DNA from: Actinomycetota bacterium
GTDB taxonomy: Bacteria; Actinomycetota; Acidimicrobiia; IMCC26256; PALSA-610
Assembly: GCA_003134555.1 (NCBI GenBank)
Contig: PLBO01000131.1
Span: 226 to 37,271 of the forward strand
Reading direction: 5' to 3'
DNA length: 37,046 nucleotides
Shown here: piece by piece, positions 3,170 to 28,834 of the stretch
Layout: every line of letters begins with the position of its first letter
How positions within the stretch are numbered: position 1 is the first letter of the stretch
The notes under the pieces: model-generated
Database searches by the model: none
What the model saw: only the letters and a program-made list of their open reading frames with translations
What the model was told of the DNA's origin: nothing
Program-made: the position numbers and the translations under genes

Positions 3170-3664
3170 CTATTCCATGAGGAACTCGCGGATCGCGCGT
3201 GGGCTGCGCAGCACGTGCACCTCGGCGTCGGGCGCCAGCTGCGCGATCGCGCGCACGACCGTGGGACGGCTGCGGTACCGATAGCGGAACACCCACCAGA
3301 CAAACTTCAGATCCAACCGTTCGGGACAGCCCTCCGCCTGTACCGCCCGGCCCCGGTTCCCGAGACTGCGCCGCATTACGCGTGGCAACGTCCGCCAGGT
3401 CGGAAAGTCGCAGAAGATGACGGTATCGGCGCGGGGGAGACGCTCGTCGAGCGTGGCGCTGTAGTTGCCGTCGGCGATCCATTCGTCGCCCGAGAACAGC
3501 TCCTGCTGCACGGCCCGCCACTCGTCGCGGGGCGTCTCGACCCAACCGGGATGCCAGAAGTGGTGGTCGAGGTGCACGACCGGCAGGCCCGTGAGCCGCC
3601 CGAGCTCGACGGCAAGCGTGGTCTTGCCCGCCCCGCCGGGCCCGACGATCACGACCCGTCGCAC
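3170..3664 (-). CDS. P-loop kinase-like protein (topology-modulation/FlaR family type)
   Basis: 164-residue single-domain P-loop protein starting at a GTG. Walker A GPGGAGKTT is at residues 8-16. It is followed by LDHHFWHPGW, EWIADGNYSATLDERLPRAD and VIFCDFPTW, the layout of the adenylate-kinase-like family often annotated as DNA topology modulation protein FlaR. The Arg-rich segment RVMRRSLGNRGR would be the lid region. It ends with a short helix, REFLME. The true substrate of this family is not established, so the topology label should not be taken literally. It lies about 80 bases upstream of the HerA-like gene on the same strand and may head that operon. It is divergent from the luciferase-like gene across a 121-base promoter region. 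Confidence 0.75.
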   Translation of the reverse strand: MRRVVIVGPGGAGKTTLAVELGRLTGLPVVHLDHHFWHPGWVETPRDEWRAVQQELFSGDEWIADGNYSATLDERLPRADTVIFCDFPTWRTLPRVMRRSLGNRGRAVQAEGCPERLDLKFVWWVFRYRYRSRPTVVRAIAQLAPDAEVHVLRSPRAIREFLME

Positions 3665-3701
3665 GGCCCCATCTTCCTCTCCGCCGGCCCGGACGGCGTA
3701 C

Positions 3702-3730
3702 TGGACACCGATCGACCGCTCCTCTAGGAT
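3702..3730 (+). promoter_or_regulatory. Sigma70-like promoter of the luciferase-like gene
   Basis: A -35-like TGGACA (3702-3707; 5 of 6 to TTGACA) and a -10-like TAGGAT (3725-3730; TAnnnT form, 4 of 6) are separated by exactly 17 bases. This predicts transcription starting near 3737, inside the palindrome at 3730-3747, so a bound repressor would block initiation. The leader to the ATG at 3786 would be ~50 bases and carries a purine-rich ribosome site (GGGGAGGA, 3769-3776). Read by eye; not measured. Confidence 0.55.
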
Positions 3731-3747
3731 TTAGAACACGTTCTAAA
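3730..3747. promoter_or_regulatory. KstR-type palindromic operator
   Basis: Perfect inverted repeat with 8-base arms and a 2-base spacer: TTTAGAAC-AC-GTTCTAAA. Its core TAGAACACGTTCTA fits the published mycobacterial KstR consensus TnnAACnnGTTnnA at every fixed position. KstR is the TetR-family repressor of cholesterol catabolism in mycobacteria and rhodococci. The site overlaps the predicted start of transcription for the luciferase-like gene. No regulator gene is in the window, so assigning it to a KstR homologue is inference from the motif. Confidence 0.72.
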
Positions 3748-3785
3748 AACGCCGGTCGGACGGCGAAGGGGAGGATCCACCGATC

Positions 3786-4907
3786 ATGGAATTCGGTCTG
3801 TTCCAAGGCGGCTTCGTCCACAAGGACACGGCGGCGAAGAACCCGAACGCCGAGCACGATCGGCTCATGAGCGAGATCGCGCTCTGCGAGGTGGGCGACC
3901 GCCACAACTGGAAGTACGCCTGGTTCACCGAGCACCACTTCCTCAAGGAGTACTCGCACATCTCCGCGAGCGAGACGCTCATGGCGTGGGTGCTGGCGCG
4001 CACGCAGAACATTCACGTCGCGTCGGGAATCATCAACATCACGCCGCCGGTGAACCACCCCGCGCGCGTCGCGGAGCGGGTCGCGATGATGGACCTCGTC
4101 TCGAACGGCCGCTTCGAGTTCGGTACCGGACGAGGTTCGTCGACCACGGAAATGGGTGGCTTCGGTATCACCGATCCCGAAGAGACCCGCGACATGTACG
4201 ACGAGGCGATCCGCGAGATCGTGCGTATGTGGCGCGACGAGCCCTACTCGTACGACGGCAAGTACTTCTCGATGCCCGAGCGCAACGTGTTGCCGAAGCC
4301 CTTCGTGAAACCGCACCCGCCGCTGTGGGTCGCGGCCGGCAATCCGGAAACGTTCGAGCGCGCGGCGCGCATGGGCATCGGCGTCATCTGTTTCACCGGT
4401 GGAACGCCCGAGAAGATGGCGCCGCTCGTCGACACCTACAAGAAGCACATCGCGAACGCGGAACCGGTGGGCGAGTACATCAACGACAACATCGCCATCA
4501 CTACGAGCTTCATGTGTCTCGAAGATCGCGACGAGGCGCGCAATTACATGGCGCATTCGGGGAACGGGCGCCAGCAGACGCTCGTGTTCCACTACCTCGA
4601 CACGTTCCCCAAGCCGCCGTTCGTGCCCGAGTGGCCCACCGAGATCCCCGACCCCACGCCCGAGGCGATCGAGAAAGGTTTCCGGAGCGGGGCCGCGATC
4701 GTGGGCACGCCCGACGACTGCGCCGAGGGTATCCAGAAGTGGGTCGACATCGGCGTCGACCAACTCATCATGGGACCGTCGGGCAGCACCTATCCGCACG
4801 AGTTGCTCGAGCGGACGGTGTCACTCTTCGGTGACGAGGTCATCCCGCGGTTCGACAAAGACCCCGAACACTCCACGTCGAAGTACCGGTCGGCCGCGGC
4901 CAACTGA
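3786..4907 (+). CDS. LLM-class flavin-dependent oxidoreductase (luciferase-like monooxygenase)
   Basis: 373-residue bacterial-luciferase-fold oxidoreductase, expected to use FMN or F420; the cofactor cannot be decided by eye. Family marks: FTEHHF near residue 50, TPPVNHPARVAERVAMMD, GRFEFGTGRGSS, PLWVAAGNPETFERAARMG, and a C-terminal IVGTPDDCAEGIQKWVDIGV segment typical of LLM enzymes. The start is supported by GGGGAGGA about 9 bases upstream. A KstR-like palindrome on its promoter suggests a role in sterol or related lipid degradation. In M. tuberculosis the KstR regulon contains an annotated F420-dependent oxidoreductase (Rv3520c) beside OB-fold and Ltp genes, a useful parallel rather than proof of orthology. 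Its stop codon overlaps the next start by one base. Confidence 0.9.
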   Translation: MEFGLFQGGFVHKDTAAKNPNAEHDRLMSEIALCEVGDRHNWKYAWFTEHHFLKEYSHISASETLMAWVLARTQNIHVASGIINITPPVNHPARVAERVAMMDLVSNGRFEFGTGRGSSTTEMGGFGITDPEETRDMYDEAIREIVRMWRDEPYSYDGKYFSMPERNVLPKPFVKPHPPLWVAAGNPETFERAARMGIGVICFTGGTPEKMAPLVDTYKKHIANAEPVGEYINDNIAITTSFMCLEDRDEARNYMAHSGNGRQQTLVFHYLDTFPKPPFVPEWPTEIPDPTPEAIEKGFRSGAAIVGTPDDCAEGIQKWVDIGVDQLIMGPSGSTYPHELLERTVSLFGDEVIPRFDKDPEHSTSKYRSAAAN

Positions 4908-5467
4908 TGGCCGCTCCCACGGACGGGAACGATCACACCGAGTACTCGGACCATCCCGATCTGACCGGCGTCGCCGGGGTGATGCGCGCGGAGTGGCGCG
5001 CGGAGCAGGAAGCCGCCACCGCCGACGCCGCGGCGCAGTGGCGTCACGGCCGCAGCCTCGCCGACTGGTTGTGCGAACGCATGCACGCGGGCGATCGCAT
5101 CGCGGTGACGGTTACGGAGCAGTCGTTCGTGGGGCTCGTCGAGGAGGTCGGCGACGACCTGCTCGCGCTGCGGTGCGCGTTCGGCCGGGTCGAGATCCAT
5201 GTTTGCGCCGGCATCCCGATCTCGTTCGAGCTCGTCGAGCACGCGACGCAGGGCGGGACGCGCTCGGTGTTGCGTCGCGGGTTTCGCGACGCGTTGGTCG
5301 CGCGTGACGCGCAAGACAGCGTGAGGGTCGGCACACTCCAGCAGCCCGACGGGATCGACGGAACGCTCCTCGTCAGTCGTGACTTCGTCGCAGTGGTGCC
5401 TCGCGCCGGTGCCGAATCGCTGGTCCTGATCGCCCAGGTCGCCTGGGTGACGGCCGCGCGGGCCTGA
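4907..5467 (+). CDS. Conserved actinobacterial hypothetical protein, Sm-like segment
   Basis: 186-residue protein of unknown function. The start overlaps the preceding stop by one base (TGATG), so it is translated with the luciferase-like gene. Residues ~1-50 are acidic and Ala-rich and probably helical. Residues ~60-100 (GDRIAVTVTEQSFVGLVEEV, then GDDLLALRCAFGRVEIHV) have the alternating Gly/hydrophobic pattern of a small beta-barrel of the LSm/SH3 type. The rest is beta-rich with a conserved-looking RDFVAVVPR stretch. No membrane segment, signal peptide or catalytic motif is seen. Proteins with such segments are frequently annotated as hypothetical in actinobacteria; no specific function is claimed. 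It is convergent with the esterase gene, with only 9 bases between them. Confidence 0.8.
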   Translation: MAAPTDGNDHTEYSDHPDLTGVAGVMRAEWRAEQEAATADAAAQWRHGRSLADWLCERMHAGDRIAVTVTEQSFVGLVEEVGDDLLALRCAFGRVEIHVCAGIPISFELVEHATQGGTRSVLRRGFRDALVARDAQDSVRVGTLQQPDGIDGTLLVSRDFVAVVPRAGAESLVLIAQVAWVTAARA

Positions 5468-5476
5468 TCGACCGCC

Positions 5477-6337
5477 TCAGCGGGGCGCGTCGAAGAGATA
5501 GCGCAGCGAGCGTGACAGGTTGGAGTGCTGGACGGTGACGTGCATCTCGTCGGGCAGGACGATGCTGTCGAGCTCGAGACTGGGGTAGTTCCGGCCGCGC
5601 AACGCCGCGACCATGCGCTCGGTGTCGGCGACCATGTCGATGTAGCGAAGACTGGCCTTCGCGCGTTCGTCGGCCGGGAGCCGGCTCGCCTCGCGTTGGC
5701 GACCGTCGTGGTCCTCGTGTGCGCCGACCGCGAAGAACACCTTCGCCGGCAAGTCGTCGCGCGCTTCGGCGCAGCGTGCCTCGTAGTCGAACATCATGTC
5801 GCCGTCCCACCACAGCGACGGGCTCCCGATGCCGTAGCGCCGGAACGTTCCCGGCGCGGTGAGGAGCACGTACGTCGCGAACAATCCGCCCAGTGAGTGC
5901 CCGAAGAAGGCGGAATGGTCGACGTCGACGCGGTATCGCGACTGCACCCAGGGCGTGAGCTCGTCGCGGATGAACGCCAAGAACTTCGGGGCACCACCCA
6001 TCATCGTGTGGGTCGGGAAGACGTGGGCGAAGCCGGCGTCGTACGTGGGTGTGAAGTCGCGGGCGCGAACCACGACTGTCTCGTCGATGGCGCCCATGCG
6101 ATAGCCGATCCCGACGACGAGCATCGGCGGGAGCTGTGCCGAGAGCTGCATGAAGCGAACGATGTCGACCGCGCTCGCGAACATCCCGTTCGCGTCGCCG
6201 ACGTAGAGCACCGCAGGAGGGGCCGAGTCGTGCGCGCCGCAATGTCCGACGAAGATCTTGAACTCGTCACCGACGTGCTCGGACCGGAGGTAGTGCACCT
6301 CGGTGTCGGCGAGCGGTGATCGATCGTTCGAAGACAC
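5477..6337 (-). CDS. Alpha/beta-hydrolase esterase (esterase D / enterochelin-esterase type)
   Basis: ~286-residue cytoplasmic serine hydrolase; no signal peptide is seen. The nucleophile elbow GHSLGG places the catalytic Ser at ~148. The acid is probably in the VGAHEDHD segment (~203-210), and the catalytic His in DEMHVTV at ~265. The fold order (LYVGDANGMF, GIGYR, FLAFIRDELTPWV, then GHSLGG) is that of the putative esterase/IroE-Fes group, which cleaves acyl or siderophore esters. The substrate is unknown. It lies upstream of nothing obvious on the same strand: 12 bases separate it from the end of the SDR gene, so it is probably the distal gene of the HTH-SDR-esterase transcript. Confidence 0.85.
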   Translation of the reverse strand: MSSNDRSPLADTEVHYLRSEHVGDEFKIFVGHCGAHDSAPPAVLYVGDANGMFASAVDIVRFMQLSAQLPPMLVVGIGYRMGAIDETVVVRARDFTPTYDAGFAHVFPTHTMMGGAPKFLAFIRDELTPWVQSRYRVDVDHSAFFGHSLGGLFATYVLLTAPGTFRRYGIGSPSLWWDGDMMFDYEARCAEARDDLPAKVFFAVGAHEDHDGRQREASRLPADERAKASLRYIDMVADTERMVAALRGRNYPSLELDSIVLPDEMHVTVQHSNLSRSLRYLFDAPR

Positions 6338-13242: not shown

Positions 13243-13663
13243 CGTGCGTGCCACCGACCGGAGAGGGTCCGAGCACGGCTTCGTCGCCATCGAATGGGTG
13301 GCGGCCATCGCGATATTGCTGCTCCCGATCGTCGTCCTGGTCGCCACCATGCCGGGTTGGGCCGAGCGCAGGCACGCAGCGACGGTCGCCGCACGTGAAG
13401 CCGCGCGCGATCTCGTCGACAATTGGCCGAATGGCAATTCGGACTCGGCCAAGCTCGTCGCGCTCGACGTTGCTGCGGATCACGGCGTCGATGCCACCGA
13501 CGTCGACATCCGCGTGCCTTCGGTAGGAGACGCACGCGGGGACGATGTGGTCGTCGAGGTCGAGGTGACGATGCCGGCGATCGGCGTCAGCGGGATGTCG
13601 GTTGGTTCGTGGCACTACGTCGCACGCGCGACTCGCCGGATCGACGACTTCCGGAGTCGATGA
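13232..13663 (+). CDS. TadE-like minor pseudopilin 2
   Basis: 143 residues. The start is taken at the GTG overlapping the previous stop by 11 bases; GTG at 13244 is an alternative. After a polar leader ending SEHG, the sequence FVAIEWVAAIAILLLPIVVL gives a textbook prepilin site: cut after Gly, Phe at +1 and Glu at +5. The rest is a soluble domain (AATVAAREAARDLVDNWPNG, DVVVEVEVTMPAIG) typical of the TadE family. It ends with the TGA inside ATGATG, overlapping the next gene. Confidence 0.78.
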   Translation: MRADVRATDRRGSEHGFVAIEWVAAIAILLLPIVVLVATMPGWAERRHAATVAAREAARDLVDNWPNGNSDSAKLVALDVAADHGVDATDVDIRVPSVGDARGDDVVVEVEVTMPAIGVSGMSVGSWHYVARATRRIDDFRSR

Positions 13664-14085
13664 TGCGACCGCAACGGGCGAACGAGCGCGGCACGATCAC
13701 GCTGTGGGTACTGGGCCTCTGCATTTCGCTGCTCTTCCTCGGCGGGTTGAGCCTCGACCTCTGGCGCGCCGTCGCCGACCGGCGCCAGCTTTCGTCGATG
13801 GCCGACACCGCGGCGACCGCGGCCGCGAACGGCGTCGACGTCGAGGCGTTGCGCGCGGGAGTTCTGCGGCTCGATCCGGTTCGAGCGCGTGCAGTCGCGC
13901 GGGCGTCGCTCGAAGGAGATGCGCATGGGCGCCACCTCGACGCGATCGACGTCGAGGTGGTCGGCAACCGCGTGACCGTGACATTGCGCGATCACGTCGA
14001 CTTCTCGTTGCTCGGCGTGTTCATGGGTGGCCAACGGTTCGACGTGCAGGTGCACGCGTCGGCTGAACCCGAGGAACGGTCGTAG
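13660..14085 (+). CDS. TadG-like pilus-associated protein
   Basis: 141 residues starting at ATGATG, overlapping the previous stop (ATGA). The N-terminus ERGTITLWVLGLCISLLFLG, then GLSLDLWRAVADRRQLSSMADTAATAAA, matches the N-terminal domain of TadG-like Flp pilus assembly proteins: one membrane helix, an Asp just after it, and the Arg-Gln/Ala-Asp-Ala-type helix. The usual large TadG C-terminal domain is missing; only ~90 residues follow, so this is a short form. Last gene of the pilus operon; 16 bases separate it from the convergent repeat-protein gene. Confidence 0.78.
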   Translation: MMRPQRANERGTITLWVLGLCISLLFLGGLSLDLWRAVADRRQLSSMADTAATAAANGVDVEALRAGVLRLDPVRARAVARASLEGDAHGRHLDAIDVEVVGNRVTVTLRDHVDFSLLGVFMGGQRFDVQVHASAEPEERS

Positions 14086-14101
14086 GAATCGGCAAAACGC
14101 T

Positions 14102-16153
14102 TTACGCGAAGCTCTCGATCAGTGTGCGATCACTTGCGTTGACGTGATACGTGCCGACGGCCTTGCAGTTGGTATTGCCGGCACACGCCACGCCGCTCAG
14201 GTTGGAATTCGTCGCGTCGGTCGGATCGGGGGTCGCGGCGATCGCCCAGCTCGTCCCGTTCCAACGTTCCAGCAGCATCTTGGTCGCGGACGAGTTCTGG
14301 TAGTCGCCCACGGCGAAACAGTTTGTCGCGCTGGCACACGAGACGCCGGCCAGAATCGAATTGGTCGCGCCGATCGGGTTCGGGCTGGTAGCGAGCGACC
14401 AGCTCGTCCCGTTCCAATGCTCCACCAAGGTCTTCTCGACTGCGTTGCGCAAGTAGGTGCCGACGGCGAAGCAGGTCGACGTATTCGGACACGACACCCC
14501 GTTCAGGATGGCGACGGCGTTGATCGGGGTCGGAGTGGCAACGATCGTCCAGCTCGTCCCGTTCCAATGCTCCACGAAGGTCTTGTCGCCGGCGCTACCG
14601 ACGGCGTTGCAGCTCCTGATGCTCGGACACGACACCCCCTGCAGCTGGACGAAGCTAGCGCTCGGGTTCGGGCTCGCGATGATCGCCCAGCTGGTCCCGT
14701 TCCAACGCTCGATCAACGTCTTGTCGCCCGCGCTGGTCGCGTACTCGCCGACGGCGAAGCAACTTGTTGCGCTGAGACACTTCACGCCGTTCAGGAATAC
14801 GGACGTTGCTCCGGCCGGGTTCGGGCTCGCGCTGATCGACCAGCTGGTCCCGTTCCAACGCTCGATCAACGTCTTGCTGGCCGAGCTGGTCGCGTACTCG
14901 CCGACGGCGAAGCAATTCGTTGCGCCGGAACAGGTGACGCCGTTGAGGGTGGCGGAGGTGGCGCCCGTCGGGTTGGGGGTATAGACCGTCGCCCAGCTTG
15001 TCCCGTTCCAGTGCTCCGCCAGCGTCTTTTGCACCGAACTGGTCTGATAGTTCCCTACGGCGAGGCAGTCCGTCGCGCTCGGGCACGCGACCTGTAGGAG
15101 TTGACTCTGCGAACTCCTGGCCGCGGGAGGCGAAATCGACCAACTCGCGCCGTTCCATTGCTCGACCAACGCCGCGTTTGCGGAGCTGGTGTCGTAGCTG
15201 CCGACGGCGAAGCAACTTGTGGTGGTGGGGCACCTCACGCCGCTCAGGCTGGCCGAGGTTGATCCCGGCGGGTCGGCGTTGGTGACGATGGTCCAGCTCG
15301 CGCCGTTCCATTTTTCGATCAACGTCGCGAAGGCCGAGCTGGTCTGGTAGACCCCGACCGCGTAGCAACTCGTTGTACTGGCACACGACACGTCGCTCAG
15401 GCCGGTGCTCGTCGTGCCGGTCGGGTTGGGGCTGGTGACGATCGCCCAGCTCGTGCCGTTCCAATGCTCTATCAAGGTCTTGCTTTCCGAGCTGGTCTGG
15501 TAGTCGCCGACGGCATTGCAGTCGGTCGTGCTCGCACACGACACCGCCGAGAGCAGCGAGATGGACCCGCTCGGATTGGCGCTGGCGAGGACCGCCCAGC
15601 TTCTCCCGTTCCAACGCTCGATCAATGTCCAGTGGGCCGTCGTGGTCGTCCAGTCGCCGACGGCGTAGCAGAGCGTCGTACTCGGGCACGCGACGCTGCT
15701 CAGGTAGCTGCCGGTCGCGCCGCGTCGGTTGGGGCTGGTGACGATCGACCAGTTCGCCCCGTCCCAGTGTTCCACCAGAGTCTGGTTTGGGGTCGAGCCG
15801 GTCAAGTAGTAGCCGACGGCGTAGCAGCTCGTGGTGCTCGGACACGACACACCGTTCAAGGTGGTCCAGGTCGCGCCGCTCGGGTTGGGACTGGTGATTA
15901 TCGACCAGGTCGTCCCGTTCCATTGCTCCACCAACGTGCTCCGTGCCGAGCTGGTCGAGTAGCCGCCGACGGCGAAGCAACTCGTGGCACTCGGACACGA
16001 GACGCCGCTCAACTCGCTGATGTTCGCGCCAAGGGGGTTCGGGCTCGCGGTGACCGACCAGTTGGTCCCGTTCCATTGCTCCACCAGGGTCGCCTGGTCG
16101 GAGTAGCCGACGGCGATGCAGCTGGTCGTGCTGAAACAGGACACGCCGAGGAG
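14102..16153 (-). repeat. Fourteen in-frame tandem repeats of ~150 bp
   Basis: The coding region of the secreted protein is a tandem array with a period of about 138-153 bases. Conserved DNA words such as AACGGGACGAG (minus strand, encoding NGTS) recur in nearly every unit. Units differ enough that they arose by old duplication followed by drift, except units 9 and 10, which remain closely similar. The array can recombine, so copy number may vary between strains and short-read assemblies may collapse it. Confidence 0.85.
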
Positions 16154-16324
16154 GACACCATTCGGTGGCCCGGCCGGACTCGTGCTCGTCTCGACAGTCC
16201 ACATCGGAGTCGCGCTGGCCGGTGTCGCGGCTGCACTCACCAAACACGCGACCAGACTCAGCGAGACAGCCAACCTGAAAGCGGCCGAAACGCACCGGCG
16301 TCGCCGACAGATCCGCCGCTCCAT
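14102..16324 (-). CDS. Secreted Cys-rich repeat protein, probably beta-propeller
   Basis: 740 residues from the ATG at 16324, chosen because it gives a normal Sec signal peptide: basic RRICRRRR, hydrophobic AVSLSLVACLVSAAA, and a likely cut after ATPASA. ATG 16342 and TTG 16417 are alternatives. The mature part is fourteen repeats of ~46-51 residues with consensus LsGVsCpStTsCyAVGxY, then TLvEhWNGTsWsIvtSPNPxGAT. Each repeat has two Cys five residues apart (CxxxxxC), 28 in all, probably one disulfide per repeat in an exported protein. Repeat 14 breaks off after TLIESFA, while the mature N-terminus begins with the missing piece (MWTVETSTSPAG), as in ring-closing propellers. No anchor motif or enzyme site is seen. 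It lies convergent to the pilus operon; a surface or adhesion role is only a guess. Confidence 0.85.
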   Translation of the reverse strand: MERRICRRRRCVSAAFRLAVSLSLVACLVSAAATPASATPMWTVETSTSPAGPPNGVLLGVSCFSTTSCIAVGYSDQATLVEQWNGTNWSVTASPNPLGANISELSGVSCPSATSCFAVGGYSTSSARSTLVEQWNGTTWSIITSPNPSGATWTTLNGVSCPSTTSCYAVGYYLTGSTPNQTLVEHWDGANWSIVTSPNRRGATGSYLSSVACPSTTLCYAVGDWTTTTAHWTLIERWNGRSWAVLASANPSGSISLLSAVSCASTTDCNAVGDYQTSSESKTLIEHWNGTSWAIVTSPNPTGTTSTGLSDVSCASTTSCYAVGVYQTSSAFATLIEKWNGASWTIVTNADPPGSTSASLSGVRCPTTTSCFAVGSYDTSSANAALVEQWNGASWSISPPAARSSQSQLLQVACPSATDCLAVGNYQTSSVQKTLAEHWNGTSWATVYTPNPTGATSATLNGVTCSGATNCFAVGEYATSSASKTLIERWNGTSWSISASPNPAGATSVFLNGVKCLSATSCFAVGEYATSAGDKTLIERWNGTSWAIIASPNPSASFVQLQGVSCPSIRSCNAVGSAGDKTFVEHWNGTSWTIVATPTPINAVAILNGVSCPNTSTCFAVGTYLRNAVEKTLVEHWNGTSWSLATSPNPIGATNSILAGVSCASATNCFAVGDYQNSSATKMLLERWNGTSWAIAATPDPTDATNSNLSGVACAGNTNCKAVGTYHVNASDRTLIESFA

Positions 16325-17197: not shown

Positions 17198-18376
17198 ATG
17201 CCTGACGCAGTTATCGTCGCCGCGGCCCGCACCGCGATCGGGACGGCCCGCAAGGGCACCCTCCTCGACGTGAGTGCTTTCGACCTCGCGAAGTACGCGG
17301 TCGGCGAGACGCTCAAGCGGTCGGGCATCCCCGCGCCCGACGTCGACGACCTCGCGCTGGGTGAGTCGCTGCAAGGTGGGGGAGACATCGCCCGCTACGC
17401 GGCCATCGAGCTCGGCCTGGTCGAGATCCCGGGCGTCGCGCTCAACCGGCACTGCGCGTCGGGCATGGCATCGGTGCAGGGCGCGGCCGCCAGCATCATG
17501 GCCGGCATGGACAAGGTCGTGATTGCCGGTGGTTCCGAGTCGATCTCCACCTCGCCGCAAACCACGAAGCGCACTCCCGGCACCGACGAGTGGGTGCAGT
17601 GGATGTCGCCGTCGCACCCCGCCACTCCCGACGCGCCGGCCTTCGACATGTCGATCACCGTCGGTTACAACACCGCGCAGTCGGCGGGCATCAATCGCGA
17701 AGACTGCGACGCGTGGGCGTTCCGTTCGCACCAGCGTGCGATCGCCGCGATCGACGAAGGTCGCCTGCAGGAAGAGATCGTGGCGATCGAGGTGACCATG
17801 CGCGACGGCACGACGAAGATCTTCGACACCGACGAGCACCCCCGCCGCGGCAGCACGATGGAGAAGATGGCGTCGCTGAAGCCGTTGCACCCAGAGATCG
17901 AGAACTTCCCGATCACGGCCGGCAACTCCTCGGGTCTCAACGACGCGGCGGCGGCGATGATGATCGTCAGCAGCGACTACGCCAAGGCGAACGGTCTCAC
18001 GCCGCTCGGCAAGATCGTCTCGTGGGCGTCGGCGGGCGTGCAGCCCCGCGACACCGGCCTCGGCCCGATCTCCGCGATCCCGAAGGCTCTCGAGCGCGCG
18101 GGCCTGACCATCGACGACATCGACCTCGCCGAGATCAACGAGGCGTTCGCGTCGGTGCCCGTCGCGGCCTGCCGGGTGCTCGGTCTCTCGGAAGACATCA
18201 CGAACCCGAACGGCTCGGGCTGCTCGCTCGGTCACCCCGTCGCCGCTACCGGCGCCCGCATGATCATCACCACCATGTACGAGCTGCGCCGGCGCGGTGG
18301 CGGCATCGGCCTCGCGAGCATGTGCGCGGGCGGCGGCATGGGTTCCGCGACCGTGTTCGAGGTATACCCGGGCTAG
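17198..18376 (+). CDS. Thiolase (acetyl-CoA C-acyltransferase)
   Basis: 392 residues, the standard length for degradative and biosynthetic thiolases. The nucleophile Cys86 is in LNRHCASGMASVQ. GGSESIS follows, then NEAFA (~307), the His motif NPNGSGCSLGHPVAATGAR, and the C-terminal acid/base Cys in MCAGGGMGSATVFE. All catalytic elements are present, so this is an active thiolase that cleaves 3-ketoacyl-CoA or condenses acetyl-CoA. The shared operator with the acyl-CoA dehydrogenase and MaoC genes favours a role in beta-oxidation. Substrate length cannot be told from sequence alone. The VOC gene follows after 18 bases and is probably co-transcribed. Confidence 0.93.
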   Translation: MPDAVIVAAARTAIGTARKGTLLDVSAFDLAKYAVGETLKRSGIPAPDVDDLALGESLQGGGDIARYAAIELGLVEIPGVALNRHCASGMASVQGAAASIMAGMDKVVIAGGSESISTSPQTTKRTPGTDEWVQWMSPSHPATPDAPAFDMSITVGYNTAQSAGINREDCDAWAFRSHQRAIAAIDEGRLQEEIVAIEVTMRDGTTKIFDTDEHPRRGSTMEKMASLKPLHPEIENFPITAGNSSGLNDAAAAMMIVSSDYAKANGLTPLGKIVSWASAGVQPRDTGLGPISAIPKALERAGLTIDDIDLAEINEAFASVPVAACRVLGLSEDITNPNGSGCSLGHPVAATGARMIITTMYELRRRGGGIGLASMCAGGGMGSATVFEVYPG

Positions 18377-18803: not shown

Positions 18804-20168
18804 TCAGATCCCGAGGGTCTTGCCCTTGTAGAGCGCGAGACATTGCGCGGCGCCGCGCGGGTCGATGGTCGCGGCCGGGAGTTTCGGCGGCGTCGCGTAC
18901 GCCGGGTGGGAGAAGTCGAAGAAGTCGGTCATCGGCGCGGCCGCGGCGTCACGGCGCGAGAGTGCCTTGAGTCCGAACCGGATCTCGATCGTGCGCAGGA
19001 TGCTGGTGTGATCGTGGACGACGTGCGAAACGAAGTGCGGTCGCGACCACGGTGACATGACGAGCACGGGTACGCGCACTCCGTACTGGTCGAACGCCGC
19101 GGGAGCGTCACCCGGATTGCGGATGGGCGCGATGTCGTCGGGCTTCGGCGCCTTCGGCGGTGCCACGTGGTCGTAGGAGCCGCCGTGCTCGTCCCAAGTT
19201 TGGAAGAAGGCCGACGTCGACCAGTTCGGGCTGCGCATCAAAGCGCCGATCACCTTCGCGCTGAACTGCTGTCCGAGCTGGGGATTCGCGGGCGGGTGCT
19301 CGTCGTTCTCCTCCTGCACCTTGCCGATGAACGTCGGCTCGAGGAACGACACGTTCGGCAGCTTGCCGGCGGCCGCGTCGGCGTAATAGTCGGCGATTCC
19401 GACCACGTGACCCTTCGAGTGGTCGCGCACGTATGCGAACAGGAGGCTCTCGACGGAAATCTCGGAGTTGTAGATCTTCCAGCTGACGTGCGCGGCGTCG
19501 AGTTCCTCGAAGATGGTCTTCTGCGTCCATCCGTTGCCGGACGGGATCGCGTTGTCGACGTGGCCGAACGACGTGCCGGCGATGAGGTAATAGCGGTTCG
19601 GGTACGTCGGCCCCGGCACCGACGAGAAGTAGCGGTCGCCGATGCCGAAGGTGCGCGCGAGCCCGTAGTAGTAGGGAAGTTCGCTTGGTCCGAACTGCGC
19701 CATCGCGCGTGAGCCGGTCGGGTCGGTCGGGTCGACGTTGGTCGCGGTGAAGCCGTCCATCTTCCCGCCGTTGATCTGTTGGTGCACCGCGTCCCAGCCG
19801 TGCGCAAGGTCCGCGGTCTCACACATCTTCGGGTTGTTGAACGACAAGATCGGCGGCGCACTCTTGTCGACCGGATTCGGATTGCCCGCCTGCGACTGGT
19901 CGGTCGACCAAAGCCGACCGAAGTAGCTGTCGAACGACCGGTTCTCTTGCATCAGCACGACCAGATGGTCGATGTTCTGCCTCAGCCCCTTCGTCGGGGA
20001 AATGGTGGTGGTCGTCGTCGACGCCGCCGTCACGGGAGCCGGGGCAGTCTTCGATCCACCGCTGCTGCAGGCCGTGACCGCCAAGATGCCCAAGCAGACG
20101 ACTGAAACCGCCGGAGCCTTCACGGTCGCCATTGTGCGCCGCCCGACGAGGCCGAGGCGACTTCTCAT
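18804..20168 (-). CDS. Phospholipase C / acid phosphatase-like lipoprotein (phosphoesterase family)
   Basis: Up to 454 residues; Met13 (20132) is an equally good start. The signal region ends in a lipobox, LAVTAC, with Cys34 followed by SSGGSK and a Thr/Ser-rich linker, so it is probably a lipid-anchored surface protein. The catalytic domain has the PLC-family (PF04185-like) marks: HLVVLMQENRSFDSYFG (~68-84), FTATN, SVPGPTYPNRYYLIAGTS, FFQTWDEHGGSYDHVAPP, and DHTSILRTIEIRFG. It should hydrolyse phosphoester bonds of phospholipids or other phosphate esters outside the cell. Mycobacterial PLCs are Tat-exported; here the signal looks Sec/lipoprotein-like. Confidence 0.88.
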   Translation of the reverse strand: MRSRLGLVGRRTMATVKAPAVSVVCLGILAVTACSSGGSKTAPAPVTAASTTTTTISPTKGLRQNIDHLVVLMQENRSFDSYFGRLWSTDQSQAGNPNPVDKSAPPILSFNNPKMCETADLAHGWDAVHQQINGGKMDGFTATNVDPTDPTGSRAMAQFGPSELPYYYGLARTFGIGDRYFSSVPGPTYPNRYYLIAGTSFGHVDNAIPSGNGWTQKTIFEELDAAHVSWKIYNSEISVESLLFAYVRDHSKGHVVGIADYYADAAAGKLPNVSFLEPTFIGKVQEENDEHPPANPQLGQQFSAKVIGALMRSPNWSTSAFFQTWDEHGGSYDHVAPPKAPKPDDIAPIRNPGDAPAAFDQYGVRVPVLVMSPWSRPHFVSHVVHDHTSILRTIEIRFGLKALSRRDAAAAPMTDFFDFSHPAYATPPKLPAATIDPRGAAQCLALYKGKTLGI

Positions 20169-23218: not shown

Positions 23219-23252
23219 CGCGGCCGCTGTCTCCCGCTCAGGTGAGGCCGCG
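23219..23252. terminator. Possible bidirectional terminator between HAD and GDH genes
   Basis: Inverted repeat CGCGGCC (23219-23225) and GGCCGCG (23246-23252) with a 20-base loop, lying between two convergent genes and covering the GDH stop. There is no T-run and the loop is long, so the assignment is weak. Confidence 0.25.
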
Positions 23253-26200
23253 GAGCTCGCGCAGCGCGACCGACAACGTTGCGACGTCGAAGACACCGTG
23301 GACTCGGATCTCGTCGAGCAACGCGAGCACACGGCCGACGACCGTTGCGCGCGGCTCGACCCACGTCTCGTAGGACTCGGCAGTCAACGCGGCGTCGACG
23401 ATGCGACGGAACTGCGCGGCCGCGTCCTCGCGCAACGCGTTGCGCGCCAGGTCGTCCCACCGATCGGCGCGGGGTAGCTCGACGATCCGGTCGCCGAGCC
23501 AGTCGAAACGGAGCTTGTCGCCGACATCGTCGTAAGTGGCCGCCACGGTCTCGACCTCGACCTTGTGGGCATCGGCCAGCTCGGCGATGTCGAGCGCGCG
23601 CGGCAGATTCGCGAGCGCGGCGATCCGTTGGGCGAGCTCACGGGGCACGCCCTGCGCGGCGTACTCCGCGGTGGCGGGTTCGATCTTGGGCGACACGCTC
23701 GCCATCGCGGCCAGGCGCGCGACCGGCACCGCGAAGAACGCGACCGTCACGGCGACGGGCAACGGTTGGGGACGATTCCGTAGCAGCCAGCGCGCGCCCC
23801 GCTCGACGAGCCGCCGGCTCGCGAGGTACACGCCGGTCTGCACGTCGACGTCGAGCGTGCGGTCGAGCGCCTCGATATCGCGCCACAGCGCGTCCTGGTC
23901 GAAGATCGCCCGCGCCGCCTCGTGCGCGCGCACGATGTCGGGTCCGTGGGCGCCGGTCTCCTCGCTCAGCCGGAACGCGAACGTCGTGCCGGCGCGGTTG
24001 ACCAGACCGTTGACGAGCGCGGTGGCCGTGATCTCGCGGCGCAGCGTGTGGGTGCGGATCCGATCGAGGAACCGTTCTCGCACCGCGTAGGGGAACGTCC
24101 GCACCAACTCGGGCATGAAGTCGGGGTCGTCCGGGAGCTCGGACGCGAGCAGCTCTTCTTCGAGCGCGATCTTCGCGTACGCGAGCAACACCGCCAGTTC
24201 CGGCGCGGTGAGCCCGAGCCCGAGTTGGTGCCGATCAGCGAGTTGTTCGTCCGTGGGAAGGCGCTCGAGATCGCGGTTGAGATGGCCGCCCGATTCCAGC
24301 GCGTGCATGAACCGCGTGTGCACCTGATCCATCACGACGGCCTGGGCGCGCGCATTGTCGAGCGCGCGATTCTGGCGGTAGTTGTCGCGCAGGACGAGCG
24401 CCGCGACCTCGTCGGTCATGCTGACGAGCAACACGTTGCGATCGATCTCGCCCAGTTCGCCGTCGCGCACCGCGCCGTCGAGCAGGATCTTGATGTTCAC
24501 CTCGTGGTCGGAGGTGTCGACACCCGCGCTGTTGTCGATCGCATCCGTGTTGATGCGGCCGCCGGCGAGCGCGTACTCGACGCGGCCGTCCTGGGTGAAG
24601 CCGAGGTTGCCCCCCTCGGCGACGCTTCGGCACCGCAAATCGTGGCCGTCGACGCGCACCGCGTCGTTGGACTTGTCCTCGACCGCGGCGTGGCTCTCGG
24701 TGCGTGCTTTGACGTAGGTGCCGATGCCGCCGTTGTAGAGCAGGTCGACCGGCGCCTGCAGCATCGCGCGGATGACCTCGGCCGGGGTGAGTGCGTCGAC
24801 GCCGTCGTCGATCGCGAGCCGCGCGCGCACCTCGGGCGTGATCGAGATCGACTTCAGCGTGCGCGCGTACACGCCGCCACCTGCGGAGATTTGTGCGATG
24901 TCGTAATCGGCCCACGACGAGCGTGGCAGGTCGAAAAGTCGGCGTCGTGCTGCGAATGATGTGGCCGGATCCGGGTCGGGATCGAGGAACACGTGCCGGT
25001 GGTCGAACGCGGCGACGAGCTGGATGTGCTCCGACAGCAACATCGCGTTGCCGAACACATCGCCCGACATGTCGCCGATGCCGACCACGGTGAAGTCGTC
25101 GTGGTCCGGATCGACCTTCAGGTGGCGGAAGTGGCGCCGCACCGACTCCCACGCACCCCGCGCCGTGATGCCCATCGCCTTGTGGTCGTAACCGTGCTTG
25201 CCGCCCGACGCGAACGCGTCGCCCAGCCAGAAGCCGCGCCCGCACGCGATCTCGTTGGCAATGTCGGAGAAAGCCGCGGTGCCCTTGTCGGCGGCGACCA
25301 CCAGATAGGGATCGTCGTCGTCGTAACGCACCACCTGATTCGGCGGTACGACCTTGCCGTCGACCAGGTTGTCGGTGACGTCGAGCAACGCCCCGATGAA
25401 CAGGCGGTAGCAAGCCTCGACCTCTTCGCGTAACCGCGCGGCATCGGCGGGCGGCCGATTGACGACGAAGCCGCCCTTGGCGCCGGCCGGCACGATCACC
25501 GCGTTCTTGACGCGCTGGGCCTTCATCAGCCCGAGTACCTCGGTGCGGAAGTCTTCGCGCCGGTCCGACCACCGGATCCCGCCGCGTGCGACCTTGCCCG
25601 CGCGCAGGTGCACACCTTCGACGCGCGGCGAGTACACGAAGATCTCGAACAGCGGCCGGGGCAGCGGAAGGTCGGGGATCGCACTTGGGTCGAATTTCAG
25701 CGCGACGCACGGCGGCGGATTGCCTTCGGCGTCACCTTCCTGGAACCAGTTCGTGCGCAGCGTCGCGAGCACGAGATGGAGCAGCGCCCGCAGGATGCGG
25801 TCTTGGTCGAGCGAGGTCACCGCGTCGAGCGCGGAGCGGATCTCGTCGGCCAGGCGTTCGGTCGCGCCCGTGTCGCCGCGGGCGCTCGCGCCGCTTTGTC
25901 GATCCGTGCCGACGACCCACGGATCGAGGCGCGCGACGAACAGCTCGACGAGCCGGCGTGCGATCTCATTGTGCTGACTCAGCGCGCCCTCGATATAGGT
26001 CAAGCTGAACCGAGTTGCGGTCTGGCGCAGATAGCGGCAGTAGGCACGTAAGAGCGCGACCTCTCGCCAGGCGAGCCCGGCGGTGAGGACGAGGCGGTTG
26101 AAACCGTCGTCCTCGGCGCGGCCGTCGACCACCGCGAGGAACGCCTCCTCGAAGAGTCGAAGCGCGGCGGGATCGATGACCGTGCCCGCGGGTGCGCGCA

Positions 26201-28010
26201 GGCGGAACCACTTCATCCAACGGCCGTCGAGACTTTTGGGCGTCAGCGCGTAGGGGTGCTCGTCGTCGACGATGACGCCCATGTTCGTCAGGCGCGGCAG
26301 CACCTCCGACAAAGACGGTTGCGCACCGATGCCGTACAGCTTCAGGTCGAGGTGATCGGTGCCGGTTGTGAGCCGCGCCGCGAGCGGCTTGGCGTCGCCG
26401 AGCTGTTCGAGCTGGGGCAGGTCGGCGAGTGCCTCGGCCGCGTCGAAGTCGTATTGATACGCACCGGGGTAGGCATCGGCCCAGACGCGCAACGCGTCGA
26501 GCCCCGTCTCCTCACCTCGCGACGCGATCAGCGCGTCGCGCAGGTCGTCGACCCACGCGCGCACCGCGGCCGCGACCGACTGCTCCAACTCGCCGACGTC
26601 GACGGTGTCGCCGCCCGGTTTCTCGAGGTGCAACACGAAGTGCAGCCGGGCGAGCACCGACTCGGATAGCCGCGTGTTCCACTCGTAGCCCTGCGATCCG
26701 TACGCGGCGGCGAGCAGCTGTGCGATGTGCTCGCGTACCTGGGTCGTGTACCGGTCGCGGGGGATGAAGACCAGACACGACACGAACCGGCCGTACGGTT
26801 CGCGATGCACGAACAGGCGAACCCGGCGCCGCTCCTGCAGGCGCAGGATGCCCATCGCGTTCTTGAACAGTTGGTCGACGTCGATCTGGAAGAGGTCGTC
26901 GCGTGGATACGTCTCGAGGATCTGCATGAGATCCTTCTGATCGTGGCTCGCAGGTAGGAATCCCGCCCGCTCGATGACGGCCGCGACTTTCCGGCGCAGC
27001 ACGGGCACGTCGAACGGACTCCCGGTGTACGCGCCCGACGAGTACAACCCGATGAACCGGTGTTCGCCGACGACCTCGCCCTGCGCGCCGTAACGCTTGA
27101 TCCCGATGTAGTCGAGGTGGGTCGGCCGGTGCACCGTCGAGCGGGCATTCGCCTTCGTCAACACCAGGAGGGTCTTCTCGCGTGCCTTGGCGCGGATCTC
27201 GGCCGGCAGGCGCGCGAAGCTCGCCGACGGTTGCTCCGGCGCCCCGCGCAACAATCCGAGCCCCGAACCCGGCACCGGCACCAACCGGTCGTCGTCGGTG
27301 AGCTCGTAATCGCGGTAGCCGAGGAACGCGAAGTGCTGATCGGCGAGCCACTCCAGGAGCGCCTTGCCCTCGGCGAGCTCCTTGACATCGCACGGTGGCG
27401 GCATCTGCTCGAGCTCGGTCACGAGGTGCTGCAGCGCGTCGAGCATCGGTCCCCAATCGCGTGTCGCGGCGCGCACGTCGTGCAGAACCGAGAGCAACTC
27501 GCTTCGCACCGTGTCGAGGATGTCGGTGTTGGTCTCGCGGTCGATCTCGATGTGCGTCCACGACTCGAGTAGCACCTGCTCGCCGTCTCGGGCCGGAGCG
27601 TCGTCGGGAGCCATCCCGATCAACTCGCCGTCGTGCGAACGGCGTACGCACAGGATCGGGTGCACGACGAGGTGCACGCCGAGATTGCGACGGTCGAGCG
27701 CCATCGTGAGGGAGTCGACGACGAACGGCATGTCGTCGAGCACGACGTCGACCGCGGTGTGACCGCGTGCGGGCGTGTAGACGCGCACGAGCACTTCTGC
27801 CGGGCCGCGCCGCGCGCCGAATCGCCAGTGCTCCAGCGCCGCGGCTGCGAGCTCCTCGGTCGTCCAGATCGCCAGGTCGTCGTCGCCGAGCTGTCCGTAA
27901 TAGGAATGGACGAATGCGTCGGCGCCCTCGGGATCCGACGCGCTCACGAGCTCGCAGATCCGCGCCATCACGTCATCGCGACGGGCCACGACGCCGACCA
28001 TACCGTGCAT
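23238..28010 (-). CDS. gdh: NAD-specific glutamate dehydrogenase, large (180-kDa class)
   Basis: About 1590 residues from the ATG at 28010. Converts L-glutamate to 2-oxoglutarate and ammonium with NAD, usually in amino-acid catabolism. The long N-terminal half contains the regulatory ACT-like regions of the class (VDVVLDDMPFVVDSLTMALD near the start; LFVHREPYGRFVSCLVFIPR in the middle). The catalytic core near residues 800-920 has RGGIRWSDRREDFRTEVLGL, then KNAVIVPAGAKGGFVV with the active-site Lys, then GDMSGDVFGNAMLLSEHI. The length agrees with the 1.6-kb-codon class of Streptomyces and mycobacteria. The start at 28010 is backed by GAGGA four bases upstream; a start at 28085 would run into the divergent hisN. 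Confidence 0.94.
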   Translation of the reverse strand: MHGMVGVVARRDDVMARICELVSASDPEGADAFVHSYYGQLGDDDLAIWTTEELAAAALEHWRFGARRGPAEVLVRVYTPARGHTAVDVVLDDMPFVVDSLTMALDRRNLGVHLVVHPILCVRRSHDGELIGMAPDDAPARDGEQVLLESWTHIEIDRETNTDILDTVRSELLSVLHDVRAATRDWGPMLDALQHLVTELEQMPPPCDVKELAEGKALLEWLADQHFAFLGYRDYELTDDDRLVPVPGSGLGLLRGAPEQPSASFARLPAEIRAKAREKTLLVLTKANARSTVHRPTHLDYIGIKRYGAQGEVVGEHRFIGLYSSGAYTGSPFDVPVLRRKVAAVIERAGFLPASHDQKDLMQILETYPRDDLFQIDVDQLFKNAMGILRLQERRRVRLFVHREPYGRFVSCLVFIPRDRYTTQVREHIAQLLAAAYGSQGYEWNTRLSESVLARLHFVLHLEKPGGDTVDVGELEQSVAAAVRAWVDDLRDALIASRGEETGLDALRVWADAYPGAYQYDFDAAEALADLPQLEQLGDAKPLAARLTTGTDHLDLKLYGIGAQPSLSEVLPRLTNMGVIVDDEHPYALTPKSLDGRWMKWFRLRAPAGTVIDPAALRLFEEAFLAVVDGRAEDDGFNRLVLTAGLAWREVALLRAYCRYLRQTATRFSLTYIEGALSQHNEIARRLVELFVARLDPWVVGTDRQSGASARGDTGATERLADEIRSALDAVTSLDQDRILRALLHLVLATLRTNWFQEGDAEGNPPPCVALKFDPSAIPDLPLPRPLFEIFVYSPRVEGVHLRAGKVARGGIRWSDRREDFRTEVLGLMKAQRVKNAVIVPAGAKGGFVVNRPPADAARLREEVEACYRLFIGALLDVTDNLVDGKVVPPNQVVRYDDDDPYLVVAADKGTAAFSDIANEIACGRGFWLGDAFASGGKHGYDHKAMGITARGAWESVRRHFRHLKVDPDHDDFTVVGIGDMSGDVFGNAMLLSEHIQLVAAFDHRHVFLDPDPDPATSFAARRRLFDLPRSSWADYDIAQISAGGGVYARTLKSISITPEVRARLAIDDGVDALTPAEVIRAMLQAPVDLLYNGGIGTYVKARTESHAAVEDKSNDAVRVDGHDLRCRSVAEGGNLGFTQDGRVEYALAGGRINTDAIDNSAGVDTSDHEVNIKILLDGAVRDGELGEIDRNVLLVSMTDEVAALVLRDNYRQNRALDNARAQAVVMDQVHTRFMHALESGGHLNRDLERLPTDEQLADRHQLGLGLTAPELAVLLAYAKIALEEELLASELPDDPDFMPELVRTFPYAVRERFLDRIRTHTLRREITATALVNGLVNRAGTTFAFRLSEETGAHGPDIVRAHEAARAIFDQDALWRDIEALDRTLDVDVQTGVYLASRRLVERGARWLLRNRPQPLPVAVTVAFFAVPVARLAAMASVSPKIEPATAEYAAQGVPRELAQRIAALANLPRALDIAELADAHKVEVETVAATYDDVGDKLRFDWLGDRIVELPRADRWDDLARNALREDAAAQFRRIVDAALTAESYETWVEPRATVVGRVLALLDEIRVHGVFDVATLSVALRELRGLT

Positions 28011-28054
28011 GGCGTCCTCATCGGCACGTTCGCGCGCTCCCGTATGCTCGCAAC

Positions 28055-28834
28055 GTGGACACCGCCGAGGCATTGGAGCTCGCATTGGAGCTCGCCGATC
28101 TGGCCGATGGCATCACGATGGAGCGGTTCCGCGCGCACGACTTGAAGGTCACCACGAAGCCTGATCTCACGCCGGTGAGCGAGGCCGACGAGGCGGTCGA
28201 GCGGGCGATCCGGGAGCGGCTCGGGGAGTCGACCGGTCACCTGGTGCTCGGCGAGGAGTTCGGAACCGTTGCCGGCGACGCCCTCGCCGACTCGGAATAC
28301 CGCTGGATCATCGACCCGATCGACGGCACCAAGAGCTACGTGCGGGGCGTGCCCATCTGGGCAACGCTCATCGGTCTGGAGCGCGCGGGCGAGCTGATCG
28401 TCGGTGTCGCGTCGGCGCCCGCGCTCGGCATGCGGTGGTGGGCGGGCCGGGGCCTCGGCGCGTTCCGAGACGGCGAACGCATCTCCGTGTCGTCGGTGGC
28501 GGCGCTCGACGACGCGCAACTCTCGTTCGCCTGGGACACCTCCGAACGGTTCTACGCCGACGGTGTCGGGAACAAGCTCGTCGACCTTTCGCATCGCTGC
28601 TGGCGCACGCGCGGCATCGGCGATTTCTGGCAGCACCTGCTCGTCGCGGAAGGCGCGTTCGACGTGGCGATCGACCCGATCGTCTCCCTGTGGGACATCG
28701 CCGCGCTCATACCGATCGTCGAAGAGGCGGGAGGCCGCTGGACCGCGGTCGACGGGCGCGCCGACGTCGACGCGGGCGGTTTCGTGTGCACCAACGGATT
28801 GCTGCACGACGCGGTCATCGCGTCGCTGACATAG
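28055..28834 (+). CDS. hisN: Histidinol-phosphatase, inositol-monophosphatase family
   Basis: 259 residues from GTG 28055. Mg-dependent phosphatase with the IMPase metal motifs: GEEFG (~69-73), IIDPIDGTKSYVRG (~89-102), and the C-terminal LWDIAAL aspartate. DPIDGTK followed by Y/F-VRG-VP-WATLI, and GDFWQHLLVAEGAFDVAID, is the form found in actinobacterial HisN rather than in CysQ or SuhB. It should make histidinol from histidinol phosphate. No other his genes are near, so a broader phosphatase role cannot be excluded. It is divergent from glutamate dehydrogenase across 44 bases. A longer upstream reading frame lies opposite GDH and is not used. Confidence 0.85.
   Translation: MDTAEALELALELADLADGITMERFRAHDLKVTTKPDLTPVSEADEAVERAIRERLGESTGHLVLGEEFGTVAGDALADSEYRWIIDPIDGTKSYVRGVPIWATLIGLERAGELIVGVASAPALGMRWWAGRGLGAFRDGERISVSSVAALDDAQLSFAWDTSERFYADGVGNKLVDLSHRCWRTRGIGDFWQHLLVAEGAFDVAIDPIVSLWDIAALIPIVEEAGGRWTAVDGRADVDAGGFVCTNGLLHDAVIASLT

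Follow-up and report, generated by a model that had tools for sequence, protein, structure and literature searches.

A 14-blade exported protein of an Actinomycetota bacterium, predicted to fold into two seven-bladed beta-propellers, from a family with all-or-none cysteine pairs

The window analysed here (the whole stretch of 37,046 nucleotides from one contig of an Actinomycetota bacterium) carries on its reverse strand an ORF for an exported protein of 740 amino acids. The ORF ends 16 bp (14086-14101) from the stop, at 14085, of a TadE/G-like gene (13657-14085), which is the last of the Tad genes; the two genes are convergent. An alternative in-frame ATG lies 8 codons upstream of the assigned one, so that the exact start of the ORF is ambiguous. 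The features discussed below are the following.

14102..16324, reverse strand: coding sequence of the exported, predicted double beta-propeller protein, 740 amino acids from ATG (ORF reading and homologues)
16211..16324, reverse strand: Sec-type signal peptide, residues 1-38 (read from the sequence, with a putative cleavage site)
16190..16201, reverse strand: N-terminal strand W42-E45, predicted outer strand 14D closing ring 2 (DSSP strand at model residues 5-8; single-ring PDB chains aligned over model residues 1-703)
16160..16189, reverse strand: predicted 14D-1A connector, residues 46-55 (least confident part of the model, with its sole stretch of pLDDT <50, model residues 15-17)
15131..16159, reverse strand: predicted ring 1, blades 1-7, residues 56-398 (seven-bladed domain of CylK on model residues 14-362)
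15110..15130, reverse strand: predicted 7D-8A inter-ring connector PPAARSS, residues 399-405 (model block 361-370, next lowest in pLDDT after block 11-20; preceded by the intact C-D hairpin W390-W395)
14108..15109, reverse strand: predicted ring 2, blades 8-14, residues 406-739 together with the N-terminal strand (AlphaFold2 model and structure alignments)
14165..16138, reverse strand: 14 C-x5-C pairs, one per blade, from C63/C69 to C714/C720, each predicted to form a disulfide within the A-B hairpin of its blade (positions and both-or-neither conservation)

The signal peptide consists of an n-region (RRICRRRRC), a hydrophobic core and TPASA ahead of the mature TPMW. Three cysteines are located in the leader (C6, C11 and C27), the last of them within a lipobox-like LVAC27 that is absent from the same-genus ortholog L006 (59% identity to the 740-aa protein) and from another homologue, L002. 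The mature chain contains 28 cysteines, all inside C-x5-C pairs, and the motif C-x5-C-x-AVG occurs in it 14 times, compared with a maximum of one occurrence in any of 2000 shuffles of the same chain. An earlier note on this DNA, made from the sequence alone, had described 14 units that each carry this motif and WNGTSW; the former count is exact, but W-[ND]-G-x-x-W occurs only 13 times, with the variants WNGTNW, WDGANW, WNGRSW and WNGASW. The fourteenth strand is the lone N-terminal W42-T-V-E, and the detached W-T-V piece that was proposed to supply the missing part of the last unit is thus indeed there. The units, of about 51 residues, are spaced 46-52 residues apart, and a 153-bp period was found independently by Tandem Repeats Finder. 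With mean identities of only 54% between units at the protein level and 70% at the DNA level, these repeats do not result from a fresh DNA duplication. We also considered the second set of seven units as a copy of the first (unit i resembling unit i+7) and rejected it, given that in eight 14-blade proteins an offset of seven units does not give higher identity than the other offsets do; no trace of a recent duplication of a whole ring is thus seen in these eight. The aberrant end of unit 7 noted earlier at the midpoint of the chain is real (PPAARSSQSQ, residues 399-408, directly after the W-x-G-x-x-W hairpin of the seventh repeat) and is read here as part of the predicted 7D-8A connector. The irregularity stands out in the 740-aa protein and in the ortholog closest to it but not in most of the 14-blade relatives.

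Homologues were collected by iterating a profile of the repeat unit over loci from many genomes. Before curation, the distinct complete ORFs included 52 with 7 blades and 15 with 14 blades, so that seven-blade members prevail, and after curation, which involved judgement and in which degenerate blades were restored by inspection, the blade number is 7 or 14 in 71 of the 74 complete homologues. Most of the intermediate counts belong either to broken frames, the pieces of which again total 7 or 14 (L033 and L168, 2+5 each; L012, 3+11; L015, 12+2), or to proteins whose degenerate blades were brought up to 7 or 14 in this manner (L048, L051, L169 and L076). The true exceptions are L013 with 13 blades, L069 with 11 and L078 with 8. 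The lone tryptophan strand is N-terminal, just after the signal peptide, in 59 of the 80 distinct 7- or 14-blade proteins. A few proteins (L011, L020 and L027) start instead at strand A and have an extra W-x-G-x-x-W strand at the C-terminus, with the blade total unchanged; such a circular shift with a constant blade total is how a closed ring behaves. The family is represented in Actinomycetota, Chloroflexota and Dormibacterota and sporadically in other phyla. Phage records yielded no match, and plasmids only four weak ones. Close relatives include L006, from an Actinomycetota MAG, for which an ORF of equal length and with identical spacing of the units is present in a same-genus genome (G166), and L009, from an Acidimicrobiia MAG, which is matched by an ORF in a same-family genome (G020). 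These two matches make Acidimicrobiia the most likely class of origin for the window. Another same-family genome (G139) contains many matches to the 740-aa protein, 12 of them with E values of 1e-20 or lower and distributed over several contigs, which indicates an expansion of the family in that genome. The genome under study (G000) itself encodes a second 14-blade double propeller, on contig C116 (L192, 9890-12151, reverse strand); the two sequences share ∼45-56% identity over separate segments, and ∼0.6 kb from this second copy lies the gene for a collagen-repeat protein of 546 amino acids that has a BclA_C domain (L192, 7675-9315).

Structure prediction of the mature chain, one of the checks that the earlier note had suggested, yields a closed double propeller and no solenoid. 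From a 17-row alignment, made up of 14-blade homologues, AlphaFold2 produced a model with a pLDDT of 88.9, a pTM of 0.58 and 56 strands (14 x 4), compared with the poor, unusable model (pLDDT 42.8) of a single-sequence run. The pTM value fits two rigid bodies of uncertain mutual orientation. Foldseek searches with the model ranked GH74 xyloglucanases on top; Elp, Aip1 and further double propellers came next, and the single rings that were matched include Ycf48. In VIA-align superpositions, single seven-bladed rings aligned with the model over 276-337 residues at an rmsd of 2.3-2.8; the ring of CylK covers model residues 14-362 (337 residues, rmsd 2.7, Z 37), and those of streptogramin lyase, RACK1 and Gbeta align over 276-289 residues that span model residues 1-703. 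We consider it close to certain, on the basis of this model, that the protein forms two separately closed seven-bladed propellers, as had been proposed from the sequence and as the 7 or 14 blades of the homologues also suggest. Because CylK occupies residues 14-362 and the other single rings reach from 1 to 703, the simplest reading, drawn from the alignment ranges only, is that the N-terminal strand pairs with the last blade and would close ring 2. Ring closure by this strand had been proposed in the earlier note; the refinement made here is that the strand is assigned to the second ring and not to the first. Strand 7D is assigned to blade 7 because the seventh C-D turn has the normal length, and the dips of pLDDT, deepest in model residues 11-20 and then in 361-370, agree with the positions expected of the 14D-1A and 7D-8A connectors. 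The presence of 13 hairpins rather than 12 fits a single detached strand that serves both rings.

The predicted architecture has good precedent, so that the fold as such is unsurprising. Aip1 (1PGU), WRAP (2YMU) and Utp21 also consist of 14 blades in two seven-bladed rings, with the first strand paired with the last blade and the 14D-1A and 7D-8A loops linking the rings (PMC3897721, PMC6805158), and the simplest reading of our model is the same topology. Unlike these WD40 tandem propellers, the 740-aa protein shows no WD40 sequence match (none in Pfam up to E 10), is exported and carries a cysteine pair in every blade. The GH74 xyloglucanases (5FKT, 2CN2), the best whole-chain matches, are likewise extracellular and form two seven-bladed rings from continuous blades, but the protein has no detectable sequence similarity to them, no Asp-boxes, probably a different mode of closure and no sign of catalysis.

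No Pfam or NCBIfam family covers the protein, and phmmer and profile searches with the 740-aa sequence and the 17-row profile found no relatives in the PDB. Two Pfam families were considered and dismissed: DUF6087 passes its score cut-off only by summing short matches around W-x-G-x-x-W (the best stretch is 44-62 of 99 profile positions), and the matches to DUF2510 are of the same short kind and do not extend over the full profile. In the Asp-box/BNR supercluster (Ycf48, 5OJR; sialidases; Sortilin/Vps10), the position of the Asp-box is the one occupied here by W-x-G-x-x-W, and in the 17-row alignment the G and W of the Asp-box align with the G and W of W-N-G-T-S-W. The 740-aa protein has lost the Asp and Ser of the motif, however; S-x-D-x-G-x-T-W does not occur in it, and the BNR, PSII_BNR and Sortilin models fail to match it. 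In a homologue, L066, 8 true Asp-boxes replace W-x-G-x-x-W within 14 cysteine-type blades, and this protein matches four models (BNR_2, PSII_BNR, Sortilin-Vps10 and BNR). Because L066 retains real Asp-boxes and matches BNR-type models, the family is best seen as a likely derived branch of the Asp-box (BNR/Ycf48/GH74) supercluster. In a survey of highly repetitive propellers, Asp-box members are included and the blade numbers of WD40 peak at 7 and 14 (PMC9218822); our literature searches returned nothing on a 14-bladed ring or on the WNGTSW motif.

With respect to function, the relatives are fused to a variety of domains: SLH (L017, L018), dockerin (L008), LamG together with fn3 (L029), Ig-like Big_3_5 (L054), TIG (L058), RCC1 (L032) and the PF04185 phosphoesterase, which is joined to seven blades of this family in L034 and L075. 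From these SLH, dockerin, LamG, Ig and phosphoesterase fusions we infer an extracellular binding role, and tentatively describe the protein as a possible non-catalytic binding platform, a putative adhesin- or lectin-like binder whose ligand would probably be a glycan or another surface polymer. Conservation between the 740-aa protein and L006 is 29% in the B-C loops, 54-65% in the strands and 73% in the C-D turn. The low value for the B-C loops is as expected of a ligand-facing surface, but the D-A loops differ in this respect, being no more variable than the strands (56%). A PF04185 gene is also located near the double propeller in the window (18804-20168, reverse strand), with a thiolase gene on the other strand (17198-18376) in between; because of this intervening gene, a functional link between the two proteins is a weak lead.

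Several other interpretations have to be weighed against this one. The 13 hairpins and one detached strand would be equally compatible with a single closed ring of 14 blades, in which the N-terminal strand closes blade 14, but the superposition of complete seven-bladed rings on the model is impossible for half of such a ring, seven-blade homologues predominate, 14 near-identical blades form two seven-bladed rings in WRAP (PMC6805158) and natural rings are described with 4 to 12 blades (PMC8458387), so that the probability of this arrangement is practically negligible. A plain succession of two rings, ring 1 being closed by the N-terminal strand and ring 2 by the one that follows the seventh W-x-G turn, is how GH74 is described, as two single propellers in immediate succession (PMC2716378), and it is GH74 that tops the Foldseek ranking. 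It is nevertheless a very unlikely arrangement for the present protein: the seventh C-D turn (WNGASW) is normal in sequence as well as length, which most likely places 7D within blade 7, the model ranges give 14-362 as one ring and 1-703 as the other, and the two least confident blocks coincide with the connectors expected under closure of ring 2 by the N-terminal strand.

As for the role, the protein could be a secreted glycan-active enzyme, similar to GH74, sialidases or lyases, rather than a binder. The rank of the GH74 xyloglucanases among the structural matches and the matches of L066 to BNR_2, PSII_BNR and Sortilin point in this direction, as do the alignments with CylK and streptogramin lyase, which are catalytic propellers; however, the sequence matched no solved enzyme and no enzyme family, including those of Pfam, conservation peaks at the structural motifs common to all blades, and among the Asp-box-type propellers some, such as Ycf48 and Vps10, are not enzymes. 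An enzymatic role therefore appears unlikely to us, if not quite as unlikely as the plain succession of rings. The gap of 16 bp noted earlier between the ORF and the Tad operon is confirmed and, both systems acting outside the cell, might suggest a component or cargo of the Tad (Flp) pilus. The convergent orientation excludes co-transcription, though, and Tad is no conserved neighbour: the contig of L006 has no match to the Tad proteins of the window, its sole Pfam-matching neighbour being a tRNA methyltransferase, and the second copy in the same genome adjoins thiolase, ETF, P450 and amidohydrolase genes. A role in the pilus is accordingly highly improbable, and we regard the Tad neighbourhood as incidental.

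The cysteine pair is strictly all-or-none. Of the 859 distinct units taken from the whole set of homologues, 496 contain the two cysteines and 363 lack them both, and a unit with just one cysteine does not occur; the cysteine-free members mostly have Ala and Val at the two positions. Given this co-conservation in exported proteins, a disulfide in each blade, 14 in all, is very likely. The earlier note considered 28 cysteines unusual for an exported protein of such a bacterium; the count stands, but Actinobacteria generally fold exported proteins oxidatively (e.g. PMC9974433), so that exported cysteine pairs alone are no oddity in this phylum. Profile searches of the 98%-complete genome, with positive controls, did not find VKOR, DsbB or Thioredoxin_4, yet two exported proteins, each having a cysteine pair in all 14 blades, are encoded there; VKOR was found in none of the sampled same-family genomes either. 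The genome does contain DSBA-type matches, the best of which lacks a signal peptide and a C-x-x-C at the usual place, and a CcdA/DsbD-like membrane protein next to a thioredoxin-like protein that is exported and has a C-x-x-C motif. An undescribed extracytoplasmic oxidase, or spontaneous oxidation of the hairpins upon ring closure, would be a conceivable but rather doubtful solution. The titles and opening lines of abstracts returned by our literature search offered no clear precedent for a disulfide in every blade.

Taken as a whole, the explanation that we favour, and consider probable, is that the 14 four-stranded blades of the exported protein would form two consecutive, separately closed seven-bladed propellers, of which ring 1 (blades 1-7) would be uninterrupted in sequence and ring 2 (blades 8-14) would be completed by a last outer strand that the N-terminal end contributes, with the crossing 14D-1A and 7D-8A connectors holding the rings together. 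The C-x5-C pair across the A-B hairpin of each blade, most likely a disulfide, would staple the chain at 14 points in the oxidising extracellular environment. One face would carry the W-x-G-x-x-W turns (C-D) together with the cysteine hairpins (A-B), and the variable B-C and D-A loops would make up the opposite one, the putative binding face of a rigid, non-catalytic platform outside the cell. New here are the unnamed family, placed between Asp-box propellers and tandem double rings, the quantisation of its blade number at 7 and 14, and the all-or-none cysteine pair, with its putative disulfide, in each blade. The near-exclusive blade number amounts to an independent natural test of the notion that extra blades are retained only as whole rings, and the cysteine pair offers a clean system for the effect of a per-blade disulfide on propeller stability. 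The family also raises the question how bacteria in which VKOR and DsbB are not found make so many probable disulfides.

Matches on viral contigs were considered as members of the family and rejected as kelch-like look-alikes, one contig (L085) having been read closely. It encodes, at 1173-2996, 3338-5173 and 5176-6144, proteins built of kelch-like WNGTNWTEVNDLN repeats that have the size of one or two rings and start anew at the midpoint, and such look-alike double propellers are present on many viral contigs. These proteins share with the present family the WNG-x-x-W turns (WNGTNW), the one- or two-ring sizes and the midpoint restart but differ in having 46-residue units, a GG motif and no cysteines, and are look-alikes, not members. 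Elsewhere in the window, the reverse strand encodes a large NAD-glutamate dehydrogenase of 1615 amino acids (23238-28085) with all its Pfam modules present.
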